A stretch of 64,000 bases of DNA from Tabrizicola soli (lineage in GTDB: Bacteria; Pseudomonadota; Alphaproteobacteria; Rhodobacterales; Rhodobacteraceae): assembly GCF_015999335.1 (NCBI RefSeq), contig NZ_JAEACP010000004.1:62001-126000 (forward strand), written 5' to 3'. The position numbers and the translations under genes are program-made. The first letter of the stretch is position 1, and every line of letters begins with the position of its first letter. This document shows positions 19,646-53,355 of this stretch, in pieces. The notes below the pieces were generated by a model. It saw only the letters and a list, made by a program, of their open reading frames with translations, ran no database searches and was not told where the DNA came from.

Positions 19646-19648
19646 CGA

Positions 19649-29897: not shown

Positions 29898-30452
29898 TTA
29901 CTTTGCCGCCCATAGAACGGCGTACCAATCTTCGGGCGCCAAATTTGGTTCTCGGGACACCGGGAGCTCTTCGGTGCAGATACAGGCCCGCAACAGGTTC
30001 CCGGGTTGACGCAAGTCCTTCACGAGGGCCGTTTTTAGGCGATGGGCCGCGACATAGGAAATCTCGTACCGGTGGGCGAGCCCATGCCCGGTCAGATTTT
30101 CCTCTTCCAGCCCCTTCGCGTAGGCGGTGATGACATCGCTGGCGGCGATGAACCATGTCCTGAGATCGAGCCGTGACCGGTGCATGGTCGTTCCCGCCGT
30201 CACCGAAAACTGCGTCCGGCATTGGCGGCACTGGTACAGCGACCGTGATTCAATCAGCCCGATATTTCGGTCGCCACAGGAGGGACATGTCACCCCTGAC
30301 GGCCAGCGCACATCCGCCAAGCGCCGCTGACAGGACGCCGTATCCGGGAAGGCCTGCCGGACGCCACCGATGGGGAGCGTGCGATAAATTTCCATCCAGT
30401 CTATGCGCGCCTCGACGTCAAAAACGCGTTCTTTCCGGCGCTTTCGGCTCAC
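29898..30452 (-). CDS. IS1595-like zinc-ribbon/HTH protein lacking the DDE transposase domain
   Basis: A 184-aa protein. CPSC (56-59) and CRQC (75-78) form the zinc ribbon seen at the N-terminus of IS1595/ISXO2-type transposases, followed by QFSVTAGTTMHRSRLDLRTW and an HTH-like helix set (GLEEENLTGHGLAHRYEISY). The DDE domain that normally follows is absent and no remnant or inverted repeat was seen. It starts 6 bp after the UvrD-like gene stop on the same strand, which suggests it is the last gene of the defence operon rather than a stray IS. It could supply DNA binding to the complex. Confidence 0.75.
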   Translation of the reverse strand: MSRKRRKERVFDVEARIDWMEIYRTLPIGGVRQAFPDTASCQRRLADVRWPSGVTCPSCGDRNIGLIESRSLYQCRQCRTQFSVTAGTTMHRSRLDLRTWFIAASDVITAYAKGLEEENLTGHGLAHRYEISYVAAHRLKTALVKDLRQPGNLLRACICTEELPVSREPNLAPEDWYAVLWAAK

Positions 30453-30458
30453 CGGACC

Positions 30459-32648
30459 TCATCCCAGGCTGTGGGTCTGATCGCTGATCAGCCTGGTCGG
30501 CGTACCGGACCACGACACCCGCAGCGCCTTCTTCGCCCGGGTCGCCGCGACATGCAGGAGGGACCGGTACTGCATGACGATGTCCTCCCTGTCGGCCGGG
30601 TCGACGGCGGCGCGGAGCGCCCCTTGCGGCGGGAAGGCGGCCTCGGACAGGAACGGGATCGCCACGGCGAAAAACTCGAGCCCCTTCGCGCGATGCATGG
30701 TCGTGATCCGCACCCCGGGGATGGACCGGTCATCAGCGCCGGACTGGAGCATCACCGTCTCGATATCGGCCGCGCGGAGCGTCGCCTGAACCCGGTCCGC
30801 GTCGGCGCGACGCGCGCACAGGACCCCGATGTCGGAGAGGCGGATCTGGTCGGGCGGCAGGGCCCGGACCCAGGCCACCAGCCCGTCCAGCTCCTCCGCC
30901 TCTGTCCGGCACCCGACCAGCTCCGGGGTGGCCCCCCGCATGAGGCTGACATAACCGCGCAGGGTATCGGTCCCCTCATCAAGATCGTCAACGCTGACCC
31001 CCTCGAGAACCGAGACAGCCCAGGCCCGGATCTCCTGCGTCGTCCGGTAGTTCAGGCGGAGCCGTTTCGAGCGGCCGCGCACGTTGATCCCGCAGCCCGA
31101 CATGCTGGCGCGGCGCCCGTAAATCCTCTGGTGCGCATCGCCCACGATGAAGAGGGAGTTCCGGTCGCCAGCCGGGGTCTCCGGAACGATCGCACGGATC
31201 AGCCGGAACGCCTGTTCGCCCATATCCTGCGCCTCGTCGACGATCACCGCCGCATAGGGCAGGTTCGGCGCCTCCGCCGTCAGGATCTCGGTCGCCTCGC
31301 GGTAAGCGTCGTCAGGCTCCGCCAGCCCTTCGCTGATCAGCCGGGCCCGGTAATCGGCGAAGATGTCCCACAACGCTGCCCGTTTCTTGCGGTCGAGCGG
31401 TGTGCCCCGGCCGGCCCGGGACGTCTTCAGGTACCCCTTCTGATCGGTCAGACCCTTCGCCTGGACGATTTGCGCCCATTCGGCGCGAACGAACGGCTCG
31501 GACAGGCCCTCGGGCAGCTCGTGATCATCGAAGACCTCCTTCCAGACCTGATCCAGCCGGTCCCTCGCTTCCCCGAAGAAGGCGACCTCTCGCGCGAAGC
31601 TCTTGCGCTTGAGGAACTGGGACACCCAGCGGTCCAGGTTGATCACCTCGATCCGCGGCGGGCGGGCGTCCAGATGGTCAGGGCACAGGGTCCGGAGGTT
31701 CGCCTCGATGTCATGCGCGAGGCTGGTCGTGAAGGTGGTCAGAAGGACCCGCTGGCCGGATCGGGTCGGATCGTTTTTGATCTGGTCTGCGAGGTGCTTG
31801 GCCCGGTGCATCGCGACGACGGTCTTGCCGGTACCGGCCCCGCCGCGGACCAGGACCGGCCCGTTATAGTCCCGGTAGGCGATCTTGCGCTGTTCGGGGT
31901 GCAGAAACACGCGCCAGCCCTCAAGCCCCTCCTCGAAAACGCGGCGCAGCTCCGCCTCGCTTTCCGGGATGAAGATGGTCTGGCGGCTCTGCTCGGTCTC
32001 GATCAACTTCCCGAAGGTCAACTCTACGGCGGGCTGCGGCGGTTCCGCGTCCGGCTCCGCGCCGACCCCGGTCAAGGACTGTATTTCCTCATCCGCATAA
32101 CCGGCCGCGACCGCGTAAAGGATCTGATAAGTGAGCGGGTCGAACCGGTCCTCCGCGTCCTCCAGCGCCTCGATCGTGGGAATCTGGCGGACGGCCGTCA
32201 GCTCCTCCTCCGGCACTCCGAGGGCGCGCAGCCGTGCATCTGTAACCTCATCGAAGAGGCGAGGAGCGGACGTGTCCGGCGTCGCCACCGGTTCGATAAC
32301 CGCGTCCACCTCCTCGATCACCCGAATTCGGTTCGTTTCCGGGTCGAGCTTGACCCGGCGCCCTGCCGCCCAGCGGTAGGCTTTGTCATGTTCGTTGACG
32401 TGCACGAACATGATGTCGCGGCCGACCTCGAAGGCGATGGCCCGGTACCCTTGGTCGACCCGCAAGGACTTGATCGAGCTGTCCCTCGATCCTTCCACCG
32501 TTTCCAAGTTCAGCCCATTCGCGGAAGGGTCCGACATATATTTCGTCATCAGGTCCATGAACCGGAGCGCGACCCGGTCCGGCAGTTTCCGCAGGCTCTT
32601 CATGCAGCCGATGTCGTAGGAGACCCGCTTGTTCATTGTGTCTGTCAT
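30459..32648 (-). CDS. UvrD/Rep-type helicase with RelE-like N-terminal domain
   Basis: A 729-aa protein. Residues ~8-95 resemble the RelE/ParE fold (CMKSLRKLPDRVALRFMDLM, IKSLRVDQGYRAIAF). A superfamily 1 helicase core follows: GGAGTGKTVVAMH (~265-277), VDEAQDMG (~467), LNYRTTQEIR, TTMHRAKGLEF and LHVAATRAKKAL. It would move along single strands 3' to 5'. Overlaps the large helicase gene upstream by 4 bp. In class 1 DISARM the corresponding operon end is occupied by drmC, a phospholipase-D-type nuclease, so this gene appears to replace it. Whether the RelE-like part cuts RNA is unknown. Confidence 0.85.
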   Translation of the reverse strand: MTDTMNKRVSYDIGCMKSLRKLPDRVALRFMDLMTKYMSDPSANGLNLETVEGSRDSSIKSLRVDQGYRAIAFEVGRDIMFVHVNEHDKAYRWAAGRRVKLDPETNRIRVIEEVDAVIEPVATPDTSAPRLFDEVTDARLRALGVPEEELTAVRQIPTIEALEDAEDRFDPLTYQILYAVAAGYADEEIQSLTGVGAEPDAEPPQPAVELTFGKLIETEQSRQTIFIPESEAELRRVFEEGLEGWRVFLHPEQRKIAYRDYNGPVLVRGGAGTGKTVVAMHRAKHLADQIKNDPTRSGQRVLLTTFTTSLAHDIEANLRTLCPDHLDARPPRIEVINLDRWVSQFLKRKSFAREVAFFGEARDRLDQVWKEVFDDHELPEGLSEPFVRAEWAQIVQAKGLTDQKGYLKTSRAGRGTPLDRKKRAALWDIFADYRARLISEGLAEPDDAYREATEILTAEAPNLPYAAVIVDEAQDMGEQAFRLIRAIVPETPAGDRNSLFIVGDAHQRIYGRRASMSGCGINVRGRSKRLRLNYRTTQEIRAWAVSVLEGVSVDDLDEGTDTLRGYVSLMRGATPELVGCRTEAEELDGLVAWVRALPPDQIRLSDIGVLCARRADADRVQATLRAADIETVMLQSGADDRSIPGVRITTMHRAKGLEFFAVAIPFLSEAAFPPQGALRAAVDPADREDIVMQYRSLLHVAATRAKKALRVSWSGTPTRLISDQTHSLG

Positions 32649-35600
32649 GTCCGTGCCTCCTGAAGGGCCGTGATAATTCGCGAGACCGTCTCCCCGATCT
32701 GATCGGTTTCCGGATCAAACGGGATCAGCGCCCAGCCGACCCCCTCATGGGATGTCTCGGCAACCGCGACGCGGGTATCCGACCATCCGAATTCCATCGC
32801 GCCCACCACGCGTCCGCCCGCAACCAGATCGTCCCCGAAGTGGTCCGGCCCGGGCGCCTCGGCCGCGATCAGTGCGTCAATCAACGGGTGGAACGCGTCG
32901 TCGCACAGCGCCCGCGCCTCTTCCCATGCGGCCAACCCGGGGCCCTGATCCCCCTGGTCAACGGGTTCCACCATGTCGGGTGGGGCCAACGTGTCCAGCC
33001 CGTCGAACTCGACATGAAGACCACGCACGCCCTGGAACAGGTTCACGATCCGCCAGAGCCCGCGCCAGGCCTCCGTGTAGAGGGTTTTCGCGGCCGGAAC
33101 CTCGCCCGGATCGGGCAGGACCGAACGCAGGAGAAGCCGAAGGTCGCGATCCGATTGAGTCCATTCGGTGGGCGAGATCTTTTCACAGGCCAAATAGAGA
33201 TCGAGCGCCCCGACCCCGACCTGTTCCACCGCCTGCGTACCGGAGAGAAACAGGCGCCCCGCCTCTGAAAGGGCCGCCTGCCGGGGAAGCTGGTCGATGG
33301 GGCGACCGCCCTTCACGAGGCCCCGGATCAGGACGGAGCGGATCACCGTATCCCCGTCCGCATCCCCGTCCGCATCCCCGTCCAGAAGGCGCCTCATTGC
33401 ATCGAGCGTGCTGATGGTCTGAAGCGTCCGGACCGCTTCTGCATGTGGGGCGAGCAGCGGATGCGCCAGCGCACGCCCAAGGGGCCCGGTCATCTGCGCC
33501 CCGAGGGCGGTTTCAGAGAGCGGGTTCAGGTAGCCCTTGTCCTCCGGGTCAAGGTCGCGCCAGGACAGGGTCCAGACCCGCACCTGCCCGGACCGGATCA
33601 TCAACATCCGGTCCAACAGGTCCTGGGCGACCGTACCCGCGTGATACTCGATCCCGTCCATTTCGATGACGATCGGCAGGCCGCCGCTGCGGCCAACCGG
33701 GGTCAGAAGGAAGTCGACACGCTTGCGGGGCAGGCCCCGGAACCGCGCGTCAATCTGCACCTGAGGCTCGATCGTCCAGAGGCGCGGCGCGTCCGGACGC
33801 CCCGCGCGTAGCACGAACCCACGCCGTCCGCCCGGCAGCACCTGCGGGGTCAGCGCCCCATCTCCGTAAAAGCCGGAGAGGGCTCGCAGAAGCCGCTTCT
33901 CCAGCACGCTCTCGACCAGCGCGCCCCGAATTGACGCGTCGATCCCGGTCTCGGTCTGGGTCAGGCTGTCCCATTTCTGGAGGATAGCCTCCATCATCTG
34001 TCGCGCCCGGTCCCGATCCGGCTCGCCGGGACCGAACTGTGACCTGTAGGGCTTCACGCAGCGGAAGCACCCGTTCCGGTCCGGCTCCTGGTTGCAGGGG
34101 CAGTCCCGCAGCGCCTCCGCCGCGCGGCTGACAACCTCACGCATCGTGCTCGGGTGTTCCGCGATCTGACGCAGATAGCCTGATCCGCCCGGCACGGAAT
34201 CGTAGAGGTAAAGGCTGCGAACCGTGGTCATTCCGTTCAGCTGCGCCTGGAAGATGGTGGACCGGATATGGTCCACCTTCCCCGCGAAGTGACGCCGCAT
34301 CCCGAGGTTGATCGCCGCGACGAAGCTCTTCAGATCATCATCATCCGCGTCCCCGACCACCGGGATCACGATCCGGATCGCCTCGGTGTTGAACTTGCGC
34401 ATCAGGAACACGCCGGTTTCCCACTGCTCGCGAAGCAGGTCCTCATCCCGCATGACAAGACAGTTCGGCGGGTGGGTTCCTCGATCGTCCTCGCCGCGTG
34501 GGGGACCCTGAAGCGACCCGCAGTGACGACAGATCCGGAACGGCTGTGCGGGCCGACGCTCTCCCGCGATCCGCGGCCCGGGGAGGGTGGACTTCGTCCC
34601 GAAGTTGAAGTCCCGGAACGTGCAGCTGGGCAGGAATTCAAAACCGAACGGGGCGCCGTTTTCCCGGCTGGTGAACCAGGAGGCGGCGATGTCTTCCGGC
34701 CCATGGAAGGGCATGAGAACCCGGTCGAACTGACGCTGGTCCCGCTGATCCCCGTCCCGGATCGCCGCCTTTTCCTCGCTGTCGATCGCGATGACAGACT
34801 TGAGCTGCACCACGTCATGCGCGGAGCCGCTATCCGACCACATCTCGTCCCCGCATTGCGGGCAGGTGCGGGTCTCGGCCCCCTCGATCCGGTGCGCGAC
34901 ATGCGAACAGGCTGGGCAGAAGGTCCAGCCGGCCAGATCTTCCTTGCCGATCTCGATCCGGTCGATCTGCACCTGGCGCCCGTTGGCGTAGAAGAACTGG
35001 CCCGGCGCGAATTCCGACAGGGCGGAGCTGGCGGGCCGGGAGTATTCGACGTGCAGAAGCCCGTCCTCGTCCCGTGCTGTCGCGCCATCGTTGCGCCGCG
35101 ACAGGATCGAGGTCAGTTTCACCCCTTCTTCGGGGAAGGCGTAGTTCGGCAAGATTCCCTTGTCGGTCAGAAACTTGATCACCGGCACATCGTCGATCCC
35201 GCTTCGGATCAGACGGTTGATCTCGGTCCGGTCCCGGGTCAGGTCCTGTTCACGACGCTCATATTCTTCATCGGTCAGCTCGGCCCGGCGCTTCTTGAGC
35301 CGACCAAGTTCCTTGGTCGCTTCCTCGCGCTTTTCCACCAGCCGGGCCCGTTCGGTGGCAGCCCCGTCAAAGGCCTCCCCGACGCGCCAGCCGATCGATT
35401 TCGGGTCCGTTCCGGTCAGGTAAGATCGGATCCTGTCGGCCAGATCTGTCCGGTCCTGCACCTCTTGCGGCAGGCCAGAGAGGAACCGGTCTGCCAGTTC
35501 CGGCCCGGTTTCGCGAACCAGTTCAAGCCATTCGACCGGGAACCCTTCGGTCGCGCCGGAGGCCCGGCGCTTCAGCACGTCCCGGACCTTCCCGTAATCC

Positions 35601-38600
35601 CCGCTTTCTTTTGAGGCCGCGACATAGGCGTCGAGGGTGTAGGCGGTCACCTGGCGCAGAAGCACCTCTTCGGCTGCGAGGAACACGCCTGGCGGTCGGA
35701 CCTGGCCTGCCAGCATCGGGGTTGGGTCTTCCCAGAACTGGAGGTCATGGGCACGCGCATTCGCCAGCACCATGTTCAGCGCGTTTCCGTCGCGCCGCCC
35801 GCTCCGCCCCATTCGCTGAACGTAATTCGCCTCTTCCGGGGGGACAGAGCTCAGAAGGAGGGTGGACAGGTCGCCGATGTCGATCCCCATCTCGAGGGTC
35901 GGAGTGGCCGAGATCAGGTTCGGGGCCCAGCGGGTTTCGCTCTTGATGAACCCGGTCTCGATCCGCAGCCGCTCATCCGTTTCGAGGATGCCGGTATGTT
36001 CTCGCGCCACCACCCGGTGGTTTCGGTCCGACCGGAGGGCGCGGCGCAGGGCGGGTCGGTCAGCCTGCTCGACCGCGGCCAGGTGCCCGTCACAGCCGAT
36101 CCGCGTGCAGGGGGAGCCGATGAGGACAGCCGCGTTCTCCGAAAGCCCGGTCTCGCGCCGACCGCACAAATCGCAGCACAGCCCGATCGTGGCGGTGGAT
36201 ACGGTGACCCGTTCCGGCACGAGAAGCCAGGCATGCCGGTTCTGCCCCTCCGGGCCGTTGACGCGCCGGACGATGTCGTCGGCCTCAAGTCGGCGCAGGA
36301 GGAGCGGAAAGATCGCGTCAGGGTCCGCGCCGTAGCGCAGGTCGGACGGTCCGATCAGCCGGAACAGCCAGTCCCGGTACCAGCTCGCGGGGCCGGTCCG
36401 GGTGATCTTCTCAAACCCGGTCGGGGCGGCGCCGAGGGTCACCGGAATCGGCGCGAGGCCCCGCCGGCTGTCCGGGCTTGGCAGGGAACCGGTCTTCCCC
36501 ACGCCCACCTGGATGGCGGCCGCGTACCAGTTCAGCCCGTAGTTCCCTTTCCCGTTCGCGATCGCGCTCTCGAGATAGGGGTGCGCCACGGACCCCTGCC
36601 GCCGCATCCGCTGCGTCACCCCGGCGAGGAGCCGGGTCAGAAGGGCCGGGTCGAACTCCGGCGCGCCCGGCAGATCGTTTCGCAGCTCCCGTGCCAGCCG
36701 CTCCGCGGACAGGCGCAGCAGATCCGTGGGCACGTCCGCCGCCGCCATGCCGTTCAGCTCAAGCGTGTGGTTGAAATGCGCCCGGTAGCTCAGGTCGACG
36801 AAGTACTCCCAGCCGAGCCTGATCCGGATATGGTCGAGAAACACCGGGTCGGTGATGGTGGTCCCGCTTTCGACCAGCTCCCGGTAGCGCCGCCGCCAGG
36901 TCAACTCCTTCGGGATGAACAGCGCTGTGAACCCGTCCGGGCCGAGGTCGTTCAACTGGGCGCGCGGGACGTCCTCGATCACCTCTTTCAGGGTCATCGC
37001 GCCCGTTTCCGCGGACCGAAGTGCCCCGTAGAGTGCCTTCTGGTAGACCGACAGTGCGTTCCGGGTTTCGGCCACCGCCGCCCGGTGCGCTGCGTCCTGA
37101 ACCGAGTCCGAGAACATCAGGAAGCGGGGTTTCGCCTCGGGGTGCTCTTCGTTCTGTTCGGATGTGTAAAGGGTACCTGTGATGCCGGTCGTCAAGCGCG
37201 CCGCCCGCATCCCGAAGAGGAGAAGCCCGCGCGCCTGCCCGCAGGCGGGACAGGTCCGGTCGATCCGTCCGTTCGCGTCGGTCGGGTTGTACAACCAGAC
37301 CGGCGAGGCCGGTCCCGGGCCGAGATCCTTGTGATCGGCCGGGGTGAACTCGACCGTTTCCGCGTTCAGGACCCCCTTCACGATCTGACCACCGGCGCCG
37401 CTGGCCGGGACCATCCGGTCGATCGACTCGTGATAAATAAGCCGGATCCGATCCGCCCCGTTCTCGTCGAAGAACTCCTGGTAGAGCTGCTCCAGGTCCG
37501 CATGAAGCGACTTCGACCGGGCGTCCTGCCGTCCGAGATGCGCGGTCGCCCCGCACCGGTTGCAGTTCACGACCGGAAGGGCCCGGCGAAGCTGGTCCCT
37601 TTCCAGGTCCATCTCGTGGAACAGGTCAATCTGTGAACGAACCCCGCCCGCTTCGAGCCGTGGCAGGGTTGTCACCATCCGGGCCATTTCCCGGATCCAG
37701 AGCTGGAGCCGGACGTTGAAAAGGGGGCGCGGGCTCTCGGCCGATCCGGACCGGGCCCAGGCGACCAGCCCTACGACCAGCTCGGCGAGCGCAGTCAGGT
37801 CTGCTTCGGGCCAGTCACGAAGGACCCGGACTTGTCCCAGCCCGGCCGCGATCGCCTCAAGCGAAGCGGGCCCCTTGTGCTCGGCGATGATCTTCAGGGT
37901 CCGCTGACACAGGTGATGCTGGACGAGCCGGTCCCCGAGTGCGATCCGCCAAGCCGGGTCCGCCGGGTCCCCTGTGTCCAGAAATGCGAGGTCTGGGTCG
38001 GTCCGATCCGGGAAAAGGCACGCAGCGAGCCGTCGCGCGGCTCCCGACTGGTCCATCTCAGCCGCCTCGCCTAAGGCCCCGTGGATCTCGGAGGGGTCCG
38101 GCCGGTCCAGATACTCCGCGTCACCGAACACCTCGTTGGGGGATTTCCGGGTCTCCCGGACCACCGCACCCGCATCGAACGGTTCGCCGAAAATGGTCTC
38201 GGCGTACTTGCGCAGGTCCGTCGCCGCATCTTCGCCGGAGCCGAGCGTGGCCGAAGACCCCACGCAGATCAGGTGTCCTTCCGGGGTGTTAAGCCGGTAC
38301 TTCAGGCGGCGCAGCAGCAGGGCGAGGTCCGCCCCCTGCGCCCCGTCGAAGGTGTGCATCTCGTCGACCACCAGAAACCGGAGCGTCTCCGGGTCGTTCT
38401 GCGCCCAGAGCGGCTTGTCCCGGCCGCGCAGCAGCAGGTAATCCAACATCTTGTAGTTCGTGAGCAGGATGTCAGGCGGGTTTTTTCGCATCGTCTCGCG
38501 ATGCGTGATCACGCTGTCCTCGGTCACCTCATGCGCCGGGTTCTGCGGTTCCGCGTCCGCATAGATCCCGGCCCGCACCCCCTCCAGCGACGGGATCCGG

Positions 38601-39058
38601 GTTAGCGCATCCGCGATCCGGCGCGCCTGGTCGGTCGCCAGCGCGTTCATCGGGTAGATCAGGATCGCCTTGATCCCGGGCTTCCCCTTGTGCCTCCGAC
38701 AGTGGTCCAGAATCGGCCACAGATAGGATTCCGTCTTCCCCGACCCGGTCCCGGTCGCGACCAGCGTCGAGCGCATCGCCGTCCCGCTCAGCCGGGCGAA
38801 GGCGTCCGTCTGATGCTGGTAGGGCGCGAATTTCAGCGGCACCTCCGGGAAGGGCTGCGCCCATGTCCCCTCCTTCGCCCCGTCGATCTGCCGGAACGGC
38901 ATATCGACCGAGATCCACGGCCCCTTCAGGAAGTTTCCGGGCTCGGCGATGAACCGGTCCACCATCCCCTCAAAGGCGGGGCTGGTGCTGTTCAGCGTCG
39001 TGTGGACCAGTTCGCGCAGGCTGTCCTGCACATGACGGGCGAGGAGGATCGGGTTCAT
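32645..39058 (-). CDS. Giant DEAD-type helicase with DUF1998/MZB region and C-terminal nuclease-like domain (DruE/DrmA-B-like)
   Basis: A 2137-aa protein. Superfamily 2 motifs: ATGTGSGKTE (~101-110), VVDEMHTF (~229-236), GSSATLG, and MGRSGRR (~1083). Cysteine pairs (CPAC, CPQCGDEMW) lie near 1390-1410. SLYLYDSVPGGSGYLRQI and the Cys cluster CPCN...CFRC (~1655-1675) match the DUF1998/MZB region. From ~1745 there is a PD-(D/E)xK-like segment, RVDFLL then IVIEMDGIEYH. This layout resembles DruE of Druantia, or DrmA and DrmB of DISARM joined in one chain. Starts 1 bp after the methylase stop; overlaps the UvrD-like gene by 4 bp. Likely the motor and possibly the nuclease of the system. Confidence 0.85.
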   Translation of the reverse strand: MNPILLARHVQDSLRELVHTTLNSTSPAFEGMVDRFIAEPGNFLKGPWISVDMPFRQIDGAKEGTWAQPFPEVPLKFAPYQHQTDAFARLSGTAMRSTLVATGTGSGKTESYLWPILDHCRRHKGKPGIKAILIYPMNALATDQARRIADALTRIPSLEGVRAGIYADAEPQNPAHEVTEDSVITHRETMRKNPPDILLTNYKMLDYLLLRGRDKPLWAQNDPETLRFLVVDEMHTFDGAQGADLALLLRRLKYRLNTPEGHLICVGSSATLGSGEDAATDLRKYAETIFGEPFDAGAVVRETRKSPNEVFGDAEYLDRPDPSEIHGALGEAAEMDQSGAARRLAACLFPDRTDPDLAFLDTGDPADPAWRIALGDRLVQHHLCQRTLKIIAEHKGPASLEAIAAGLGQVRVLRDWPEADLTALAELVVGLVAWARSGSAESPRPLFNVRLQLWIREMARMVTTLPRLEAGGVRSQIDLFHEMDLERDQLRRALPVVNCNRCGATAHLGRQDARSKSLHADLEQLYQEFFDENGADRIRLIYHESIDRMVPASGAGGQIVKGVLNAETVEFTPADHKDLGPGPASPVWLYNPTDANGRIDRTCPACGQARGLLLFGMRAARLTTGITGTLYTSEQNEEHPEAKPRFLMFSDSVQDAAHRAAVAETRNALSVYQKALYGALRSAETGAMTLKEVIEDVPRAQLNDLGPDGFTALFIPKELTWRRRYRELVESGTTITDPVFLDHIRIRLGWEYFVDLSYRAHFNHTLELNGMAAADVPTDLLRLSAERLARELRNDLPGAPEFDPALLTRLLAGVTQRMRRQGSVAHPYLESAIANGKGNYGLNWYAAAIQVGVGKTGSLPSPDSRRGLAPIPVTLGAAPTGFEKITRTGPASWYRDWLFRLIGPSDLRYGADPDAIFPLLLRRLEADDIVRRVNGPEGQNRHAWLLVPERVTVSTATIGLCCDLCGRRETGLSENAAVLIGSPCTRIGCDGHLAAVEQADRPALRRALRSDRNHRVVAREHTGILETDERLRIETGFIKSETRWAPNLISATPTLEMGIDIGDLSTLLLSSVPPEEANYVQRMGRSGRRDGNALNMVLANARAHDLQFWEDPTPMLAGQVRPPGVFLAAEEVLLRQVTAYTLDAYVAASKESGDYGKVRDVLKRRASGATEGFPVEWLELVRETGPELADRFLSGLPQEVQDRTDLADRIRSYLTGTDPKSIGWRVGEAFDGAATERARLVEKREEATKELGRLKKRRAELTDEEYERREQDLTRDRTEINRLIRSGIDDVPVIKFLTDKGILPNYAFPEEGVKLTSILSRRNDGATARDEDGLLHVEYSRPASSALSEFAPGQFFYANGRQVQIDRIEIGKEDLAGWTFCPACSHVAHRIEGAETRTCPQCGDEMWSDSGSAHDVVQLKSVIAIDSEEKAAIRDGDQRDQRQFDRVLMPFHGPEDIAASWFTSRENGAPFGFEFLPSCTFRDFNFGTKSTLPGPRIAGERRPAQPFRICRHCGSLQGPPRGEDDRGTHPPNCLVMRDEDLLREQWETGVFLMRKFNTEAIRIVIPVVGDADDDDLKSFVAAINLGMRRHFAGKVDHIRSTIFQAQLNGMTTVRSLYLYDSVPGGSGYLRQIAEHPSTMREVVSRAAEALRDCPCNQEPDRNGCFRCVKPYRSQFGPGEPDRDRARQMMEAILQKWDSLTQTETGIDASIRGALVESVLEKRLLRALSGFYGDGALTPQVLPGGRRGFVLRAGRPDAPRLWTIEPQVQIDARFRGLPRKRVDFLLTPVGRSGGLPIVIEMDGIEYHAGTVAQDLLDRMLMIRSGQVRVWTLSWRDLDPEDKGYLNPLSETALGAQMTGPLGRALAHPLLAPHAEAVRTLQTISTLDAMRRLLDGDADGDADGDTVIRSVLIRGLVKGGRPIDQLPRQAALSEAGRLFLSGTQAVEQVGVGALDLYLACEKISPTEWTQSDRDLRLLLRSVLPDPGEVPAAKTLYTEAWRGLWRIVNLFQGVRGLHVEFDGLDTLAPPDMVEPVDQGDQGPGLAAWEEARALCDDAFHPLIDALIAAEAPGPDHFGDDLVAGGRVVGAMEFGWSDTRVAVAETSHEGVGWALIPFDPETDQIGETVSRIITALQEART

Positions 39059-39059
39059 C

Positions 39060-42000
39060 TCAGGCGGCCTCTTCGGATTTCAACCGCTCGAAATGGGCCC
39101 AGGCGCGGCGGTAGTCCTCGATCCGGTCGCATTGGGTGAACGGGCCGACGAAGTGGCGGGTGACGGTGCGGGGGCCGCCGGGCATCGTGTCGTCGATGGC
39201 GGTGCATATCAGTTCCGCCGGATTGTCGGCGAGGATCTTCTCCCAAGCTGCGCGACCGGGGCTTTTGCCGCGGTCGTCCAGCCAGCCGACGCCGGGCAGG
39301 CCTTTGGAGCAGGTCCAGACGATCCGGCCGTTCTGGTCGAACCAAGTTCCGCTCTCATACTGTTGTAGGATCGGGAAATAGATACGGTAGACCTCAAGGA
39401 GTTGTTCAAGGGTCAAGCCGAGCGCTTGCGCAACCAGAACGTCAATCTCGACCAGCGCCAGGCGGCGGGCGAATTCGGTTCGGAGCCCTGCGCTCCGATC
39501 CCAAGTGGCGGGGCCCTCTACGGGGCCCTCGAGGCGCAAGCGAGGATCAGGAGACGACCACGGAAGAACGGCAAGCGTCGCAGAGGAGCGGTTCCATAGT
39601 TCGGCGTATTGTGATGTTAGACAAGAAAGTCGCAAAGATCGGTGCTGCGCTGTCTGTCCAACTTCTACCCAGGGGAAACGCGCCATATGGGAGTCCCTAA
39701 CATCTGAAGTTCCCGACGCCTTGATTAGAAAGTCATAAGGAAGGGAGCATGCAAATGTGCATAAGTTCAGGCGGTCCTCATCCCGTTCGGTCGCGACACT
39801 TTCTATTCCATCAACATGAGCCACGCCTGGTGGGATAAGCGCCGGAATCAAGCTGCGCTCACCGTTCAGGGCGATCATTCGCCGCAAGGCGACGCGGTAG
39901 AAATCCGCATGGCTCCTCGTAGGGTCCCAGCGGCACCGCGTCATGCGGTTTTTGTACTCAGCAAGACCGACCGCAGGACCATAATTGGTGCGCGGAAGGT
40001 AATCTGCCGGTGCCGCTGCCAGGTCGATCACGTCATAATCGGCCTTTGTTCGGTTTATTGATCTGGGCGTTTTGTAGAGCGGATTTCCAACATGAATTAG
40101 CGGCCCCTGAAGGATCATTTGATCCGCTGGTCGAAAGGTCGTTTCCCTCCGGATTGTCCCATCTTTTTGAGATGCTGTTTCGTTCCAGTGCGGCGACTGC
40201 TGCCACAGCGGCACTTCCACTGTACGCGCGCCTGTCGTCGTGCTGACTGCGCGCTCAATCTTCGGGATCGCCGCGTCCAGTTTCGGGAACCGAGCCATCT
40301 GGCGGAATACGTCGAGGGTCCGGGCGGAATAGGGCTGAATGAAACGAGCCTCCTCTACCGGAACCGTCTCCTCTTCTGAAAGAGCATGAATTACTGAAAG
40401 TGCACCTTGATCGATGTAAATGACGCGATCACGGTGGCCCCGTGTATCCCATTTCCCGTCCACGTCCTTGATGTCCGGAATCTCTCCAACACCATCGTGC
40501 GCGTACGACTCATCGACCTGTTGGGCCAAGAAGGCGGTTGTGAATTGCTCGAAAGCCGGGACCGCGTCGCTCCCACGGTAGATGTTCTGGCTGAACCGCA
40601 TATAGTGGGCGGCGTCCGCGAAGTTCTTCGACTTGATCGTGTTGATGTATCCGAAATGCTTTACGATCCGCGCATACCAGTGCCGCCGGAACGTCCCCGA
40701 CTTGGGGTCTCCCAGATGCCCGTCCTGATGGATCAACGCCGCATACCCTTGCGGCGCGACCAGCCGGAACGACAGGTCAATGAAGCACCTGTAGAGGTTG
40801 TTCGAGCCCCCCCCGGCGAAGGGGTTCATCACTTCGGACGAGGTCACCTCCATCGCCCCCCGGGTCGACACGAAATCCTGAAGGAAGGCTTCGACCGCCG
40901 GAACCAGCCGCCCCTCGCGCCGCACGGGCGGCGCCTTCGGCAGCGCCTCGGGCAGGACCTTCTTCGCGTCCGAGGCCGACAGCCCCGCATGAAGCGGGTC
41001 GATATCCGCCAGCACCAGCCCCTCGTTCCACGAGGGCTTGGCCCAGGGCGGGTTCCCGACGATCACGTCAAACCCGCCGCGCGTCTTCATCACATCCGCG
41101 AAGATCAGGTCGAAATGCACGAAGCGCTCGCGCTCGGCCACCTCGACCGCCGTCTTCAGCCAGTCGAAATTCTCGATCAGCGCCTCGACGTTCGTTTCCC
41201 GGAACAGCCCGTCCTGCCGCTTGGTGGCGGCCTTGAACAGGTCCCGCGCGGGGGCGTCGGGTTCCAACAGATCGAGGAAGTCCGGGGCCGGATCGGCGAA
41301 CTCCGCCACGCTGGGGGCGGCCAGCGATCCGTCGGCGGTGAACCCGCCCTCAAGGATCATCGCCATCCCCTGAAGGAACTCCGCCCGGCCGGGCAGCAGG
41401 TCCGCCTTGTCCAGCGGCCAGAGCCAGAGGGCGCACCACGCGTCCATCGCGGTCTTCAGCCGCTTGTAGGGGAGCGTGTTCGTCGCGTGGTCGGCCCCGG
41501 TCAGGTGGGCGTTCAGGCGGGCCTTCTCGTGGAAGTTCAGCCGCTTGTTCCCGGGCATGACCTTGCCGGGCCAGAGCGTGATCTCGTCATTCGCGGCGGC
41601 GCGGGTCTTGGCGAGGTCCTCGGCGACCTGATCGAACAGCGCCTCGGCGACGCGGCTGAGCTTCTGGACCAGCTTGATCTCGTGGGGTTCGAGCTTCTTG
41701 AAGAAGCCGTCCTTGCGCCACGCCTTGATCTGGTCCTGCGCGGATTTCGCGAACGGGGCGATCGACTTGTCCTTGTCGAAGTTCGCCATGTCCTTGGCGG
41801 GCAGGAGCCACTGCCAGACGTGACCGTCCGGCAGGCGTTTGCGCCAGCCGATCTCATCGGGTTTCCCGTTGAACCAGAGGTCGCCCTGCGCCTTGGCGCT
41901 GAGAAGCGCGGGGGCGTAGGCGGCCCGGCGCGCGCCGATCAGGGAGTTTCCGGCGTGAAGCTGGTCTCCGAACCAGGGCGAGAACTCGCTCCCGTGCAGG

Positions 42001-44006
42001 CTGTTCAGCCAGAGCGAGATCGCCCCCAGTTCGACAGCGATCGGGTTGAGGTCGACCCCGAAGCAGTTGCGGTCCGCGATATAGGCCCGGACCCGCTGCT
42101 TCTCGAGGACGATATCCTCCTGCGGGATGGTTCGGCCCATCTCCTTCTGCTTCCGCTCCAGGTAGAGGTCGGCGAGCTGGTTCGTGGTTTCCACGAGGAA
42201 GGCGGCGGAGCCCATTGCGGGTTCGAGGATCTTCAGGTCCAGCAGCTGGTCGGCGGTCAGATCCCGGCACCGCTCCATCAGCGCGTGCTTGACCAGCAGC
42301 CGGGCGAGTGGTTCGGGCGTGTAGTAGGAGGCGGATTTTTCCCGGTCCCTGCCAGCTAGCCGGTAGATGAAGGTCCCCTTTTCGTAGACGAGCGCCTCGG
42401 AACCGTTGAAGACGATCTCATCGGGGGCGAACTCGTTGATCCGGGAGCGGGGGACGAACCAGCTGGGCGCCAACTTGTCCACCTTGTCACGGCGGAACGC
42501 GTCCTCTTGTTCGGCCTCTTCCTCACCGAACAGGTCCTCCGCGGCGTCCTCATCCGGTTCGGGCGCTTCCGTCTCCTCCCCGTCCTCGGCCGCGTCATTT
42601 GACCGGCCCTTGCGGGGTTTCAGCTCGATGAGGTCGGTCTTGGCGACCACCCCGGTGAACGAAATCAGGGTCTCGTAGACCGCGCCCAGCTGGCCGATCC
42701 CGAGCTTGGCGTAGGATATCCGGCCCGTGCTCTTTCCGGTGGATCGGAGCGACAGCAGCCGGATCACCCGCTGAACCGCCTCGTTCCGCAGCCGCAGCCC
42801 GTTCAGGAGCGGCGTGCTCTCCGGGTCGAGCAGGGACACCTTGACGGCCGGCAGGCGAAGGCCGGTCCCTCGTTCCTCATCGGCGAGGTCGAGGCCGGTG
42901 TAGAGAAGATCAAGCGTCCGCTGGAGGCTTTCCCAGAGGAAGGTGCCCTCCCGGTCCGCCGTGGTCCGGAGCGGGACGGATTCCAGCTCACGCAGCGCCT
43001 CGAGCGAATATCCGGTCGCGTAGATCGGGTTCCGCATGTCCAAGAGGTTCAGGCGCGGGTTCGCCTCCGCGTAGAACAGGAACAGGAGCCGGTACATGTA
43101 GCGCAGGCACTCGCGCGACAGCTCCGGCCCGTCGATCCAGACTCCGCGCCGGGCCGGGTCCGGGAAGGTGGACGGGTACTTCCCGCCGGTGACCGCGATC
43201 ACCTCCTGGCCGAGCAGCTCGATCGCGTCCCGGACGGTTCGCTTCAGAGAGGTGGTGACCGCGTTGGCGTTTCGCTGCGCCTCCTCCTCGAGCCGATCCG
43301 AGATCGGCGCCCCCTGATCCGGGACGCGCGCCTCGCGGGAGATCAGGCAGGCCATCACGGTGAGCGTGTCCCGGTCCGCCCGGGCGAAGATCTCCTGGAG
43401 GTCGAACCGGAGGACGGACCGGGCCGGCCATTTCCTCTTGTCGATCAGCACGATCTGCGAGAGGCCGAGGACAAGAACGTGACGAGGGCCGTCGGACAGC
43501 TCGAACACCCCCTCGGCGAGGACGGACTCGATGGTACGATCCAGTAGGGCTGCCTCGCGCAGGTCCGGCGGAAGCTGCTCCTCCGTGAAGCAGGTCCCCA
43601 GCGGGTCCGACGCCTCGTCCTCCGGGGCCGGGATCTGCGCCTCGATCACCCAGAGCGCATCACGACCGCTGGTATCTGTTGCACGGGACACGAGTGGGAT
43701 TACCGGCGCCCCTTCGAGAGCCGTATAGGCCCCCTCGCGCCGCCACACGTAGCCGAGGGCGGTCAACACGTCGTGGTGCGCGTCCCGGACCAGTTCGGCC
43801 CGCCGGGACCGGTCCGAACTGTTGCGCACCTGACGAAGCGCCTCGACGGTCGGGCCGGCGACGCGGGCTAGCCGCTCGACCGGATGGGCGGACCGGTCCA
43901 GACCGGCCCAGCGGGCGGTGATGTCCTGAAGCTCCTCCTTCAGCACGTCCGAAAGGGTCCCGGACGGGAAGAACTCCGCTTCGTTTTCGATCCCGATCAG
44001 GTCCAT
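39060..44006 (-). CDS. Large N6-adenine DNA methyltransferase (DrmMI/PglX/Eco57I-like)
   Basis: A 1648-aa protein. The start at 44006 sits 4 bp after the stop of the SNF2 gene; an ATG at 44042 would overlap it. LEPAMGSAAFL (~590) is motif I (SAM binding), GVDLNPIAVELGAISLWL motif II and GNPPW (~985) the catalytic motif IV of gamma-class adenine methylases. About 395 residues separate motifs I and IV, as in PglX-like proteins. An acidic low-complexity segment lies near 485-510. The N-terminal 300 residues contain DALWVIEAQ, which could be a degenerate nuclease site, uncertain. It probably marks host DNA as self. Confidence 0.88.
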   Translation of the reverse strand: MDLIGIENEAEFFPSGTLSDVLKEELQDITARWAGLDRSAHPVERLARVAGPTVEALRQVRNSSDRSRRAELVRDAHHDVLTALGYVWRREGAYTALEGAPVIPLVSRATDTSGRDALWVIEAQIPAPEDEASDPLGTCFTEEQLPPDLREAALLDRTIESVLAEGVFELSDGPRHVLVLGLSQIVLIDKRKWPARSVLRFDLQEIFARADRDTLTVMACLISREARVPDQGAPISDRLEEEAQRNANAVTTSLKRTVRDAIELLGQEVIAVTGGKYPSTFPDPARRGVWIDGPELSRECLRYMYRLLFLFYAEANPRLNLLDMRNPIYATGYSLEALRELESVPLRTTADREGTFLWESLQRTLDLLYTGLDLADEERGTGLRLPAVKVSLLDPESTPLLNGLRLRNEAVQRVIRLLSLRSTGKSTGRISYAKLGIGQLGAVYETLISFTGVVAKTDLIELKPRKGRSNDAAEDGEETEAPEPDEDAAEDLFGEEEAEQEDAFRRDKVDKLAPSWFVPRSRINEFAPDEIVFNGSEALVYEKGTFIYRLAGRDREKSASYYTPEPLARLLVKHALMERCRDLTADQLLDLKILEPAMGSAAFLVETTNQLADLYLERKQKEMGRTIPQEDIVLEKQRVRAYIADRNCFGVDLNPIAVELGAISLWLNSLHGSEFSPWFGDQLHAGNSLIGARRAAYAPALLSAKAQGDLWFNGKPDEIGWRKRLPDGHVWQWLLPAKDMANFDKDKSIAPFAKSAQDQIKAWRKDGFFKKLEPHEIKLVQKLSRVAEALFDQVAEDLAKTRAAANDEITLWPGKVMPGNKRLNFHEKARLNAHLTGADHATNTLPYKRLKTAMDAWCALWLWPLDKADLLPGRAEFLQGMAMILEGGFTADGSLAAPSVAEFADPAPDFLDLLEPDAPARDLFKAATKRQDGLFRETNVEALIENFDWLKTAVEVAERERFVHFDLIFADVMKTRGGFDVIVGNPPWAKPSWNEGLVLADIDPLHAGLSASDAKKVLPEALPKAPPVRREGRLVPAVEAFLQDFVSTRGAMEVTSSEVMNPFAGGGSNNLYRCFIDLSFRLVAPQGYAALIHQDGHLGDPKSGTFRRHWYARIVKHFGYINTIKSKNFADAAHYMRFSQNIYRGSDAVPAFEQFTTAFLAQQVDESYAHDGVGEIPDIKDVDGKWDTRGHRDRVIYIDQGALSVIHALSEEETVPVEEARFIQPYSARTLDVFRQMARFPKLDAAIPKIERAVSTTTGARTVEVPLWQQSPHWNETASQKDGTIRRETTFRPADQMILQGPLIHVGNPLYKTPRSINRTKADYDVIDLAAAPADYLPRTNYGPAVGLAEYKNRMTRCRWDPTRSHADFYRVALRRMIALNGERSLIPALIPPGVAHVDGIESVATERDEDRLNLCTFACSLPYDFLIKASGTSDVRDSHMARFPWVEVGQTAQHRSLRLSCLTSQYAELWNRSSATLAVLPWSSPDPRLRLEGPVEGPATWDRSAGLRTEFARRLALVEIDVLVAQALGLTLEQLLEVYRIYFPILQQYESGTWFDQNGRIVWTCSKGLPGVGWLDDRGKSPGRAAWEKILADNPAELICTAIDDTMPGGPRTVTRHFVGPFTQCDRIEDYRRAWAHFERLKSEEAA

Positions 44007-44010
44007 TCGG

Positions 44011-46962
44011 TCACCCCACAAACACAACTTTGACGTCGACATGCGGGTTCGGGTCCGGAATCATCTTCCGGGTCCGCTCGAACCAGTCTGTCCAGTCATG
44101 GAACAGCTTCTCGATCTCCTGTTCCCGCTTGCGGCGGATCGTCAGGCGTCTCTTCTCAAACGGGCTGAGCCCCTCATCGGTACCGGGCAAGTCGCCGAGA
44201 TCAAGCGTAAGCTGGGCTCGGAACCGTGTCTCCAGGGTGGACAGCCGGTCAAGAACCGCGTCGAGGTCGCGCTGGATGTCCGCTTCTCGCGCCTTCCGGA
44301 GATCTACCAGGTGCGTCTGGAACCGGTCCACCGCAACCGGGATCGCTGCCTGCGCCGCCGAGAGGTCCTCCAGTGGGCGGCTCGGGGTGTCCCCGGCGAG
44401 CCGGGTCCGTTCCAAGAATGCGCCCACCTCTTCGATCCGCACGGTCCCGTCCGGCGACCGGATCACCACGGCCCACCGGTCCACGACCGGGGACCCGTTC
44501 GCGTTCGGGATCGCCCCGTGAAGGACCACGGCCACCTCCCCCGAGGGCAGGCGTCCGTGTAGGGACACTGCCGGGGCGGCGTGCTCCGGGAAGAAGGTGC
44601 TGGCCTGGTCTGCGAACCAGTGCAGGATCGGGTGCCCGTCCCACAGGAACTGAACGGTCGGCCAAGCCCGCTCCTGCGCCTTCGCGTCGTTGATCGCCTG
44701 GTTGATCACCCCGGGTTGGTCGGTCAACTCGATCCGGCCCCCGGGGCCGACCGCCTCCTCCGGCATGAACCGGCTATCAACCGCCCCTTCGCTCGCATAA
44801 CCGAACCCGTCGCGCGCGCGCATGTCGTCCGGGATCGGGAGCCGGATGACCCGGTCCTCCGGGAAGATCCCGGGTGGCTCCGGGAAGATGCGCCCTTCCG
44901 ACCGGGAGAGCCGCTCGATCATCGCCCGGGCATAAGTGAAGGTATCCGGGTATAGGCGAGGCGGAGCTTGATCCGTCGGAGGAGCCGCGTCGGTCGGAGC
45001 CGGGGCCGCGTAATCCCCGAAGAGGGCCGCGAACTCATCGTCGACCGACATGTGGGTTACGGCCTCCGCGGCCCGGGCGTCCATCTGGCGCTCGAACGCC
45101 TCCGCGCCGATGCCGGTAGCGACCGCCTCAGCGACGACAGCCTCCTCCCCGTCCGCGTCCCCCGCGCCGAGGAAAACGGCCGGGTCGCCGACCCCGGCTT
45201 GGGCCGCCTCGTCCTTCGCGACCAACTTCTCGAGGACCCACATCTGTCGCACCTTCGGGTGCGTGCTCTCGCCCACGAAATAGCTGATCTGCGGGGGCCG
45301 GTCCTGCCCGTACCGGTCGATCCGCCCGTTGCGCTGCTGGAACCGGAGGAGGGACCAGGGGAGGTCGAAATGGATCAGCCGGTGGCACTGGAAATGGAGG
45401 TTGAGCCCCTCGGACGCCATATCGGAGGCGATCAGGATCCGGATCGGTGATCGCTCCTGACCGAACGCCTCAATCAGCTCCTGGGTCCGGACGTCAGCCT
45501 CGACGCTTCCCCCGTCCACCCGTGCCACCTGGTCGGCCGAAAGGCCCAGGTCCTCGCGCAGCCGGTCCGCGAGCCAGGACACGGTCGCGATCCGTTCCGA
45601 AAAGATGACCAGCCGGTCCCGCGCCGCCCGACCGGTCCAGTTCAACTGGCGCAGCAGGCGCAGGAGCTCCTGATACTTGCTGAAGGCATCCGTATCGATC
45701 GCGGCCACGTGCTCCGCCAGCGCCCGTAGCCGGTCCCGGTCAGCTGGGGTGCCGCGAGCGGTCCCGTTTTCTATCCCCCGGATCCGCCGCTCGAGCGTCT
45801 CGCGACAGGCGGCCGGACTGGAAAAAATCGCCTTGGCGATCGTGGTCCGGAACAGGTCGATCGCGCGCCCCCGGGCCTGCTCTTCATCAAGATCGAGGTG
45901 CAGGTCCGCAATCGCCTGATAGGCCACCTCTTCCTGAGGGCTGAGCGGGAAGCGGCGTGGGAGGAGCTGGCGTTTCGGGACCTCTCGACCGATATCGGCG
46001 ACCACCTCCGGCGACGAGCGAAACCGGCGGACGACCAGATCCTCGATGTCAGACCGATGCAGCCGGGTCGGGTCCGGAACCCTCGTCGGGTCCAGCATCC
46101 TGATAAGACTCGCGAAACTTTCCTGAGACCCGTCATGCGGGGTTGCGGTCAGGAGCAGCAGGGAGTCGGTTCGGCGAGACAGGAGCTGCGCCAACTCGGC
46201 CCGTTGCGAGTTCGACCCGGCGGCCGACTTCCGTTCGGCCGCGTTATGCGCCTCATCGATGATGATCAGGTCCCAGTAGGAATGTTTCAGCGCGTCCCGG
46301 ATCTGGTTGTCCCGTTTCAGGGTGTCGATCGAGACGATGGACCGGTCGAACTGGTCGAACACGTTGTAATGGGCCGGGATCTTGTTGCGCATCCGCCGGA
46401 TCGCGGCGCTGTCGAGTCTGGAGAGCGGGATCGAGAACCGGGTCCAGAACTCCTTCTGGAACTGGGTCAGCATGGCCCGGGTCGTGACGACCAGGATCCG
46501 GTCAGCGCGACCGCGCAGGGCGAGTTCCGAGGTGATCAGGCCCGCCTCCAGGGTCTTCCCGAGGCCGACATCGTCCGCGATCAGGAGCCGAACCCGGTCC
46601 TGCGCCAGCGCCCGCTCCACCGGGAGGTGCTGAAAGGTCAGATCGTCAATCGCGGCCCGGCCCAGCGTCAGGGGGCGACGCGTCGTCGTCGGTGTCGCCC
46701 GGAACGCGGCCGCGAGATGCAGCTTCGTGTCGATCAGACCGGGGGACGTGTCCGGGACGAGCCGGACCGCGGCGGGGTCAAGGACGCGCGCCCCCTTCTC
46801 GAGGTCCCAGACGAACCGGGCCTCCTTGTCGCGAACCAGACCGTTCAAGCCCCGACAGTGGATCTCCCGGAATCCGCGCTTCAGCGTCGAGGTGCCCAGC
46901 ACCTTCCAGGTGGCGGAGCGGAGGCTGATGACGGACCCGGGGGTGGGGTATGCTGAACTCAT
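44011..46962 (-). CDS. SNF2-family helicase, DrmD-like
   Basis: A 983-aa protein and first gene of the defence operon. Residues 1-~100 form a small beta-rich domain (PTPGSVISLRSATWKVLG). The Swi2/Snf2 core follows: ADDVGLGKTLEAGL (~130-143), IIDEAHNA (~235), LLLTATPHDG, and FQQRNGRIDRYGQ (~543). The C-terminal 350 residues carry a coiled coil (READIQRDLDAVLDRLSTLE, KRREQEIEK). DrmD of class 1 DISARM has the same layout and the same first position in its operon. Likely translocates on double-stranded DNA without full unwinding. The methylase gene starts 4 bp downstream. Confidence 0.87.
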   Translation of the reverse strand: MSSAYPTPGSVISLRSATWKVLGTSTLKRGFREIHCRGLNGLVRDKEARFVWDLEKGARVLDPAAVRLVPDTSPGLIDTKLHLAAAFRATPTTTRRPLTLGRAAIDDLTFQHLPVERALAQDRVRLLIADDVGLGKTLEAGLITSELALRGRADRILVVTTRAMLTQFQKEFWTRFSIPLSRLDSAAIRRMRNKIPAHYNVFDQFDRSIVSIDTLKRDNQIRDALKHSYWDLIIIDEAHNAAERKSAAGSNSQRAELAQLLSRRTDSLLLLTATPHDGSQESFASLIRMLDPTRVPDPTRLHRSDIEDLVVRRFRSSPEVVADIGREVPKRQLLPRRFPLSPQEEVAYQAIADLHLDLDEEQARGRAIDLFRTTIAKAIFSSPAACRETLERRIRGIENGTARGTPADRDRLRALAEHVAAIDTDAFSKYQELLRLLRQLNWTGRAARDRLVIFSERIATVSWLADRLREDLGLSADQVARVDGGSVEADVRTQELIEAFGQERSPIRILIASDMASEGLNLHFQCHRLIHFDLPWSLLRFQQRNGRIDRYGQDRPPQISYFVGESTHPKVRQMWVLEKLVAKDEAAQAGVGDPAVFLGAGDADGEEAVVAEAVATGIGAEAFERQMDARAAEAVTHMSVDDEFAALFGDYAAPAPTDAAPPTDQAPPRLYPDTFTYARAMIERLSRSEGRIFPEPPGIFPEDRVIRLPIPDDMRARDGFGYASEGAVDSRFMPEEAVGPGGRIELTDQPGVINQAINDAKAQERAWPTVQFLWDGHPILHWFADQASTFFPEHAAPAVSLHGRLPSGEVAVVLHGAIPNANGSPVVDRWAVVIRSPDGTVRIEEVGAFLERTRLAGDTPSRPLEDLSAAQAAIPVAVDRFQTHLVDLRKAREADIQRDLDAVLDRLSTLETRFRAQLTLDLGDLPGTDEGLSPFEKRRLTIRRKREQEIEKLFHDWTDWFERTRKMIPDPNPHVDVKVVFVG

Positions 46963-47300
46963 CTTGTATCCATCTTACGACCGTCACCGGTAAGAACCCC
47001 GACCATGCGCCGGGGTCGGGCAGCTCGGTTTTCGAAAATTTCCGCCGACGCACGATCAGAACCGCAAGCCCCGACACCCTGCGCGTCCGTGGTCCATCCA
47101 AGGGTATTTCTTTTAGTTATTCAACCCAGTTAAGGCCGAAACCGGCGCCAGCGCGGCTAATGTTTGTCGAGACGCGAAGTTGGCGCAGACCGGTTCCGTT
47201 TGGAAGTGATCGCCCCGGTCAATTGAACCCATCGTGATTTCAGGCGAGACAGGGAAGGTTGGCGCAAATACAAGATTTACGCGCCGAAACGGATAACCTG
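46963..47300. promoter_or_regulatory. Divergent promoter region of the defence operon and tniQ2
   Basis: A 338-bp gap. Close to the SNF2 gene start is the dyad CTTAC-G-ACCG-TCAC-CGGT-AAG (46974-46994), and TTTTCGAAAA lies at 47029-47038. A CCCGAC/GTCGGG hairpin lies between them. These may be operators; no known regulator gene is adjacent. Confidence 0.45.
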
Positions 47301-50911: not shown

Positions 50912-50928
50912 TGCGTAGGCTTATGGTT
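50912..50928 (-). repeat. TnsB-type end site R2
   Basis: Reverse strand AACCATAAGCCTACGCA, 22 bp inward of R1 in the same orientation, opposite to L1-L3. Confidence 0.7.
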
Positions 50929-50933
50929 TCGCC

Positions 50934-50950
50934 TGCGCACGGTTATGGTT
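50934..50950 (-). repeat. TnsB-type end site R1
   Basis: Reverse strand AACCATAACCGTGCGCA, one mismatch to L1. Outside it the next bases still share ACCGA with the left end, then similarity stops. Confidence 0.75.
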
Positions 50951-50959
50951 TTTCTCGGT

Positions 50960-50964
50960 GACCG
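50960..50964. repeat. Possible target-site duplication, right copy (GACCG)
   Basis: Same five bases as directly outside the left end (19521-19525). It lies 11 bp from the last base of the nrdJ gene. Confidence 0.4.
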
Positions 50965-53245: not shown

Positions 53246-53264
53246 GCGGCGACGGGTCCTTGAA

Positions 53265-53294: not shown

Positions 53295-53355
53295 ATACGC
53301 CTCTCCCCCCGGCGGGTCAACTTGCACCCGGCCCGCCAGCGGCTATCTTTGGCGC

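Follow-up and report, generated by a model that had tools for sequence, protein, structure and literature searches.

The window analysed here is a 64,000-nt stretch of the Tabrizicola soli genome (contig NZ_JAEACP010000004.1, positions 62,001 to 126,000; all window coordinates are relative to the window). At 29898-46962 it carries five open reading frames (ORFs), all on the minus strand, which we refer to as armA, armB, armC, armD and gene 5, the last encoding a small zinc-ribbon protein. Around them lies a candidate Tn7-like transposon of 31,434 bp (approximately 19526-50959), located just past the ribonucleotide reductase gene nrdJ and holding an ARMADA anti-phage system as cargo (Table 1).

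The leftward orientation and close packing of the five genes, described in a first-pass annotation of the sequence, were found exactly as given there. The products are 983, 1660 or 1648, 2137, 729 and 184 amino acids (aa) long. The armA-armB junction is a 4-bp gap (using the 1648-aa armB start), the armB-armC junction a 1-bp gap, the armC-armD junction a 4-bp overlap and the junction of armD with gene 5 a 6-bp gap. The longer form of ArmB begins at an ATG at 44042; the shorter form uses an internal ATG. Pfam, PADLOC and NCBIfam matches bear out the SNF2 helicase, adenine methylase, DEAD helicase with MZB domain and zinc ribbon called in that annotation. ArmA contains an SNF2 domain and has DrmD as its top PADLOC and NCBIfam match, while ArmB matches Eco57I and N6_Mtase in Pfam and, in PADLOC, a Type IIG model followed by DrmMI. 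ArmC combines DEAD, Helicase_C and MZB (DUF1998-like; 8.4e-11) domains in one chain, with DruE (3.8e-97) as the top PADLOC match. ArmD matches UvrD in Pfam and gene 5 matches Zn_ribbon_IS1595.

Table 1. Features of the candidate element and its flanks (window coordinates).
Feature	Coordinates	Strand	Evidence or remark
Candidate target duplication GACCG, left	19521..19525		
Candidate left transposon end, three TnsB-site-like repeats inward	19526..19665	+	
tnsC/TniB-like ATPase	19768..20730	-	AAA_22; TniB just below cut-off
tnsB transposase	20727..22889	-	Mu-transpos_C; PADLOC TnsB 3.6e-8
tnsA-like gene	22886..23623	-	position and relatives
AAA+/M41-like gene, cargo between tnsA and zinc ribbon	25739-27814	+	
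CcdA-like gene, cargo between tnsA and zinc ribbon	27833-28075	+	
420-aa protein gene, cargo	28567-29829	+	
Gene 5, DDE-less IS1595-type zinc-ribbon gene, 184 aa	29898..30452	-	Zn_ribbon_IS1595; clade and tnsA linkage
armD, UvrD helicase with RelE-like N-terminus (RelE by reading and paper), 729 aa	30459..32648	-	UvrD; K275, D471 kept
armC, YprA/DruE-like helicase, MZB domain and long tail, 2137 aa	32645..39058	-	DEAD, Helicase_C, MZB, DruE models; K108, D232 kept
armB, PglX-like N6-adenine methylase, 1648 aa	39060..44006	-	Eco57I, N6_Mtase; G599, NPPW N985 kept
armA, SNF2/BrxHII-like helicase, 983 aa	44011..46962	-	DrmD/SNF2 matches; K136, D236 kept
tniQ, 630 aa, presumed target selector	47259..49151	+	TniQ 6.3e-19; 49% identical to L193 TniQ
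PDC-M53B, PADLOC candidate defence pair	49200-49793	-	PADLOC pair scores 2.2e-43 and 2e-52
PDC-M53A, PADLOC candidate defence pair	49800-50774	-	PADLOC pair scores 2.2e-43 and 2e-52
Candidate right transposon end, two repeats inward	50912..50959	-	
Candidate target duplication GACCG, right	50960..50964		10 bp from nrdJ stop
nrdJ-like ribonucleotide reductase, presumed attachment gene, outside element	50975..53320	-	Ribonuc_red_lgC 1.4e-127

The first four genes correspond to a system that was recently named and tested in E. coli. According to the 2025 preprint by Bell et al. (PMC12458937), ARMADA Type II consists, in order, of ArmA (BrxHII/SNF2), ArmB (PglX-like), ArmC (YprA-like, with DUF1998/MZB and a C-terminal Vsr-type nuclease) and ArmD, which has a fused N-terminal RelE-like domain. 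All four genes are required in E. coli, and protection is direct, not abortive, with no growth arrest. Residues reported there as needed or contributing are K136 and D236 of ArmA, G605 and N971 of ArmB, K110 and D234 of ArmC, and K266 and D454 of ArmD. The E. coli SC516 copy (L065) has all of the listed residues at identical numbers and, compared with it, 8/8 are conserved in the window proteins at overall identities of 39.2 (ArmA), 38.8 (ArmB), 32.6 (ArmC) and 39.9% (ArmD). The extra N-terminal region of ArmD aligns with E. coli ArmD. Gene order and domain types also agree with the published definition, and by these features armA-D are identified as ARMADA Type II, an anti-phage system that already has a name. 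The window differs from the tested copy in its 33-40% identity and in the zinc-ribbon gene that follows armD. The armA-D operon looks intact, and its anti-phage activity is predicted by analogy with the tested E. coli homologue.

To survey the system in other genomes, we used the best 80 of 492 ArmC loci from a scan of genome contigs. ArmD is present in 70 of these loci; seven stop at a contig edge and three are without ArmD. All four genes are seen in order in 45/80; the other loci run off a contig end or have only part of the set. ArmC matches at E <= 1e-100 occur in 5/394 genomes of the window's family (own genome counted), and an armC-armD query matched 525/5426 complete E. coli genomes, 518 of them over at least 80% of the query. 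The closest copies are on plasmids. ArmC is 98.2% identical, and accompanied by armA-D, on plasmids of Haematobacter and Martelella, and two less similar copies, 94.6 and 87.0% identical, come from another Haematobacter plasmid and from one of Gemmobacter, respectively. At the DNA level the four plasmids resemble the window only within 30493-46962, a stretch that begins with the ArmA start codon and ends shortly ahead of the ArmD stop. The Haematobacter (L008) and Martelella (L009) plasmids come from two orders, are both typed conjugative and have near-identical armC-armD, which is a sign of recent transfer. It should also be noted that all four plasmid copies have a gene for a WYL-domain regulator ahead of armA (L008-L011; L008 8287-9147), which the window does not; similarity to the window ends at the armA start codon. 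The armB-armC gap exceeds 200 bp in 31/65 loci holding both genes, resembling an insertion place (e.g. L008 17126-17974), and one such gap encodes a 282-aa protein with a weak Peptidase_M78 match just below the cut-off.

Recurrence of the gene set had been put forward earlier as a check, and it is obtained for armA-D, making the set more than a chance grouping; the five-gene order is intact only in L108, a contig of a metagenome-assembled genome, among the 80 loci. Sequence of at least 600 bp past armD is available at 61 of the 70 loci with ArmD. In L108 the gene follows armD with the same 6-bp gap, and its product is 76% identical to that of the window, with intact cysteines and a ratio of nonsynonymous to synonymous substitution rates (dN/dS) of 0.22. 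For comparison, the two loci are 79% identical in ArmC (dN/dS 0.14) and 82% identical in ArmD (dN/dS 0.11). By annotation and by scans, the gene does not follow armD in the four closest plasmid copies. Leaving L108's copy aside, no member of the family was found within 3 kb past armD in 16/18 rechecked loci, one of which (L092) has just 506 bp past armD; in another, L089, the locus's own family copy lies beyond 3 kb. This distribution indicates that gene 5 is not a general ARMADA component. That role was rejected on its absence from the nearest relatives and the single intact case, and the earlier idea of a five-gene system finds no support as a general unit, the family being mainly linked to Tn7-like tnsABC operons. 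A predicted model of the zinc-ribbon protein is weak (mean predicted local distance difference test score 69, built from three sequences).

We used a profile built from 8 relatives (A2; cut-off E <= 1e-25) to locate the gene 5 family elsewhere. It returned 18 places in 17/390 genomes of the order (own genome counted) as ORFs of 159-261 aa. The window's place alone was found over 385 genomes of the class, and a search of a phage collection gave a single weak match. In 15 of the 17 Rhodobacterales places besides the window, the neighbouring downstream ORF is tnsA-like, in the same orientation and separated by 44-779 bp; the exceptions are L185, with only 456 bp of contig beyond the gene, and L195, where no tns gene is seen. 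Three of the 17 places were in the profile itself, and 13 of the remaining 14 have tnsA; the tnsA profile was built in part from L075 and L076, themselves among the zinc-ribbon loci. The same zinc ribbon-tnsA arrangement is present in three loci reached by other routes (L085, L089 and L201), and in L086 tns genes are nearby in another orientation. At L089 (Alloyangia pacifica, 18750-25687) a tniQ-tnsC-tnsB-tnsA-zinc ribbon set lies just past ARMADA on the strand opposite to the operon.

The zinc ribbon and the helical region that follows it are shared with the N-terminal part of IS1595 transposases. None of the 8 family members scanned matches the IS1595 DDE domain (DDE_Tnp_IS1595), which was detected in 2/2 control proteins. 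A tree of 36 rows, comprising the window, L108, 20 rows labelled Tn7-linked (L185 and L195 included) and 14 picked IS1595 rows, two of them DDE-checked, splits the DDE-less rows from the IS1595 rows with support 100/99, and the window and L108 pair together within the DDE-less clade. Because of the tnsA linkage and this clade, the family is placed with Tn7-like transposons, which appear to be its usual location, and gene 5 itself appears to be a small gene of the carrier transposon whose product binds DNA.

Gene order in the window is consistent with such a carrier. It runs tnsC, tnsB, tnsA, other cargo, zinc ribbon, ARMADA and tniQ, then nrdJ past PDC-M53. In L193, from another genus (G654), the order is tnsB, tnsA, zinc ribbon, tniQ and nrdJ, with tniQ adjoining the nrdJ 3' end. 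The window order is thus that of L193 with tnsC first, cargo between tnsA and the zinc ribbon, and ARMADA between the zinc ribbon and tniQ; because of this parallel, we read the apparent five-gene operon as a seam at which a gene of the transposon meets the cargo. In another genome (G051), tnsB is found approximately 3.4 kb past nrdJ. Common to the candidate element and Tn7-like transposons are tnsB, tnsC and a tnsA-like gene, a large TniQ, inverted end repeats, apparent insertion just past a conserved gene and defence cargo; it differs from them in having a zinc-ribbon gene upstream of tnsA in the same strand and order, nrdJ as the apparent site and candidate tips of ACCGA.

The candidate ends were located by ACCATAANNNTRCGCA-like sites that read inward, at 19536, 19630 and 19650 on the left and at 50912 and 50934 on the right. 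With up to 2 mismatches, the motif matches 7 places in the window (0.65 expected), two of which lie away from the ends and three of which have 2 mismatches; the count is not independent, because the motif was derived from these very sites. GACCG is present 10 bp outside both outermost repeats, and the tips are ACCGA at both ends. Among 16 nrdJ loci of congeners, 14 reach the stop codon; their similarity to the window ends at 50967-50973 and the sequence beyond differs, which fits an insertion there. Further transposition genes were seen on this contig. At 16512-19418 of the window, a second TniQ shares one open frame with a truncated GlxA-like regulator (DJ-1/PfpI and AraC helix-turn-helix); it has 43% identity with the TniQ at 47259-49151 and is possibly the remnant of an older element at nrdJ. 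Left of the window (L077, 13476-17410) is a second tnsABC set, with a TnsB 51% identical and tnsA split over two frames.

Taken together, we consider it probable that armA-D are the intact-looking ARMADA Type II cargo of a Tn7-like transposon inserted past nrdJ, and that gene 5, from a transposon-linked gene family, marks the seam. A number of observations weigh against this. The tnsA-like gene has no Pfam or PADLOC match, its place being right and its sequence conserved in relatives, and the TniB match of tnsC is just below the cut-off. Gene 5 is 6.3 kb from tnsA and does not adjoin it, and tns genes are nearby in only one of the 80 ARMADA loci (L089). Twenty other nrdJ loci, covered for up to 1.5 kb past the gene, showed no tns genes there, and no clean empty site was found among the 14 congener loci reaching the stop. 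The duplication is only a candidate, because GACCG is one of four words common to both flanks within the distance limit. The tips of Tn7 are TGT, and those of the candidate element are ACCGA. On the ARMADA side, two domains named in the first-pass annotation come from reading and from the preprint, not from a model match: for its RelE-UvrD protein, the helicase has its Pfam match, while no Pfam RelE model matched the start of ArmD; for its nuclease-like ArmC tail, no Pfam nuclease model matched, and D1782, D1801, H1806 and D1813 are invariant across four aligned sequences.

Further points against a purely transposon-linked gene 5 are those that would make it a fifth defence part, for example a DNA-binding sensor or an operon regulator, recruited in one alphaproteobacterial sublineage. 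The coupling to armD recurs in L108 with an identical junction and under purifying selection, a stump of the zinc-ribbon gene (first codons) remains after armD in L089, and G353 (L079) has a broken member of the family 1.07 kb beyond armD, in the orientation of that gene. The L089 and G353 traces favour an old association of armD with the zinc ribbon in one sublineage. We nevertheless regard a five-gene ARMADA variant as unlikely: the four nearest plasmid copies are without the gene after armD, 16 of the 18 rechecked loci show no family member but L108's within 3 kb, the 80 loci include one intact case, the family is tied to tnsA in 15 of its 17 other places, and the E. coli system functions with four genes (PMC12458937). 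It is far less probable that gene 5 is mere IS1595 insertion-sequence debris that landed behind armD. Its Zn_ribbon_IS1595 match and many IS1595 relatives would suit that origin; its family, however, forms a DDE-less clade apart from the 14 IS1595 rows and recurs as short ORFs beside tnsA, and the protein retains its cysteines at a dN/dS of 0.22 versus L108. Simple debris was judged unlikely on the clade and the tnsA linkage.

Least credible is that the genes form a novel system class or a rearranged version of DISARM or of Druantia. The five-gene set had looked new because no one named system in PADLOC or NCBIfam spans it; the profile searches proposed earlier on all five proteins gave domain calls, with top PADLOC matches scattered across DrmD, Type IIG/DrmMI and DruE models. 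The SNF2 helicase and PglX-like methylase pair is common to the window and DISARM class 1. The latter, however, has separate DrmA, DrmB and phospholipase D-type (PLD) nuclease DrmC proteins that were not found in the window, where the YprA helicase and MZB are in one chain, a RelE-UvrD gene stands instead of DrmB/DrmC, and NCBIfam DISARM matches fall below their cut-offs. Druantia shares the long DruE-like helicase; no DruH, DruABCD or DruMFG matches to the window genes are among the PADLOC matches listed. A new DISARM or Druantia type was rejected, since PMC12458937 already names the set and the order, domains and 8/8 residues agree. The claim that no named system has these genes was therefore wrong for four of the five, while the description of a DISARM-Druantia hybrid was apt and matches the account of ARMADA Type II by Bell et al. 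That drmA and drmB functions had been merged into one chain is doubtful in its direction, because the same source treats the two-gene split as a peculiarity of DISARM.

The transposon reading also covers other genes in the interval. Since the PDC-M53 pair sits between tniQ and the right end, the element would carry two defence modules. The 420-aa cargo protein had no family match in PADLOC, Pfam and NCBIfam scans; it weakly matches (30 bits) one encoded between armB and armC in L095 (9039-9986). An 825-aa minus-strand ORF (25664-28141) was discarded as cargo, as it overlaps the plus-strand AAA+/M41-like gene and is probably spurious.

How the cargo and its carrier might work can be outlined from their relatives. 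DruE of Druantia, a studied relative of ArmC, combines helicase and nuclease and acts on DNA in which single strands are exposed (PMC13192584). ArmC would be the effector: it would load onto phage DNA of this kind and use the nuclease tail to degrade it. Around ArmC, remodelling or unwinding of DNA may fall to ArmA and ArmD, and ArmB methylation may aid the discrimination of self from phage DNA. For the carrier, TniQ would recognise the nrdJ end and TnsABC would insert the element there, and the zinc-ribbon protein would bind DNA, with regulation of the tns operon as its most likely role and help in targeting as a less likely one. We give an even chance to a fuller history, in which a Rhodobacterales family of Tn7-like elements has a DDE-less, IS1595-derived regulator or second selector (znR) upstream of tnsA, and one znR-tnsABC-tniQ branch that homes to the nrdJ 3' end gained ARMADA between znR and tniQ, which put one of the transposon's own genes under transcription from the defence operon.

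Diverse defence systems have already been described on Tn7-like elements (Benler 2021, PMC8649781). For E. coli, PMC12458937 describes ARMADA on satellite-like integrase elements at tRNA sites, while the window has an apparent Tn7-like element at nrdJ. The literature searched, which left most subscription papers outside, contained no report of znR-tnsABC linkage, of nrdJ as a site or of ARMADA as Tn7-like cargo. The main text of the ARMADA paper mentions none of Tn7, TniQ, transposase, IS1595 or zinc ribbon, and the accessible parts of Faure 2023 (PMC10293859) and Benler 2021 have no mention of ribonucleotide or zinc ribbon and of nrdJ or nrd, respectively. The ARMADA system itself is already known, and the zinc ribbon is a plausible new transposon accessory.

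These data place a recently named and tested defence system on an apparent Tn7-like element in alphaproteobacteria. They also account for the odd fifth gene, a transposase fragment that has seemingly become a recurrent partner of the core operon of another transposon. If the zinc ribbon does regulate or direct transposition, Tn7-like elements would have in it an accessory of which we have found no description, and through the junction with armD its expression could be tied to that of the defence operon.

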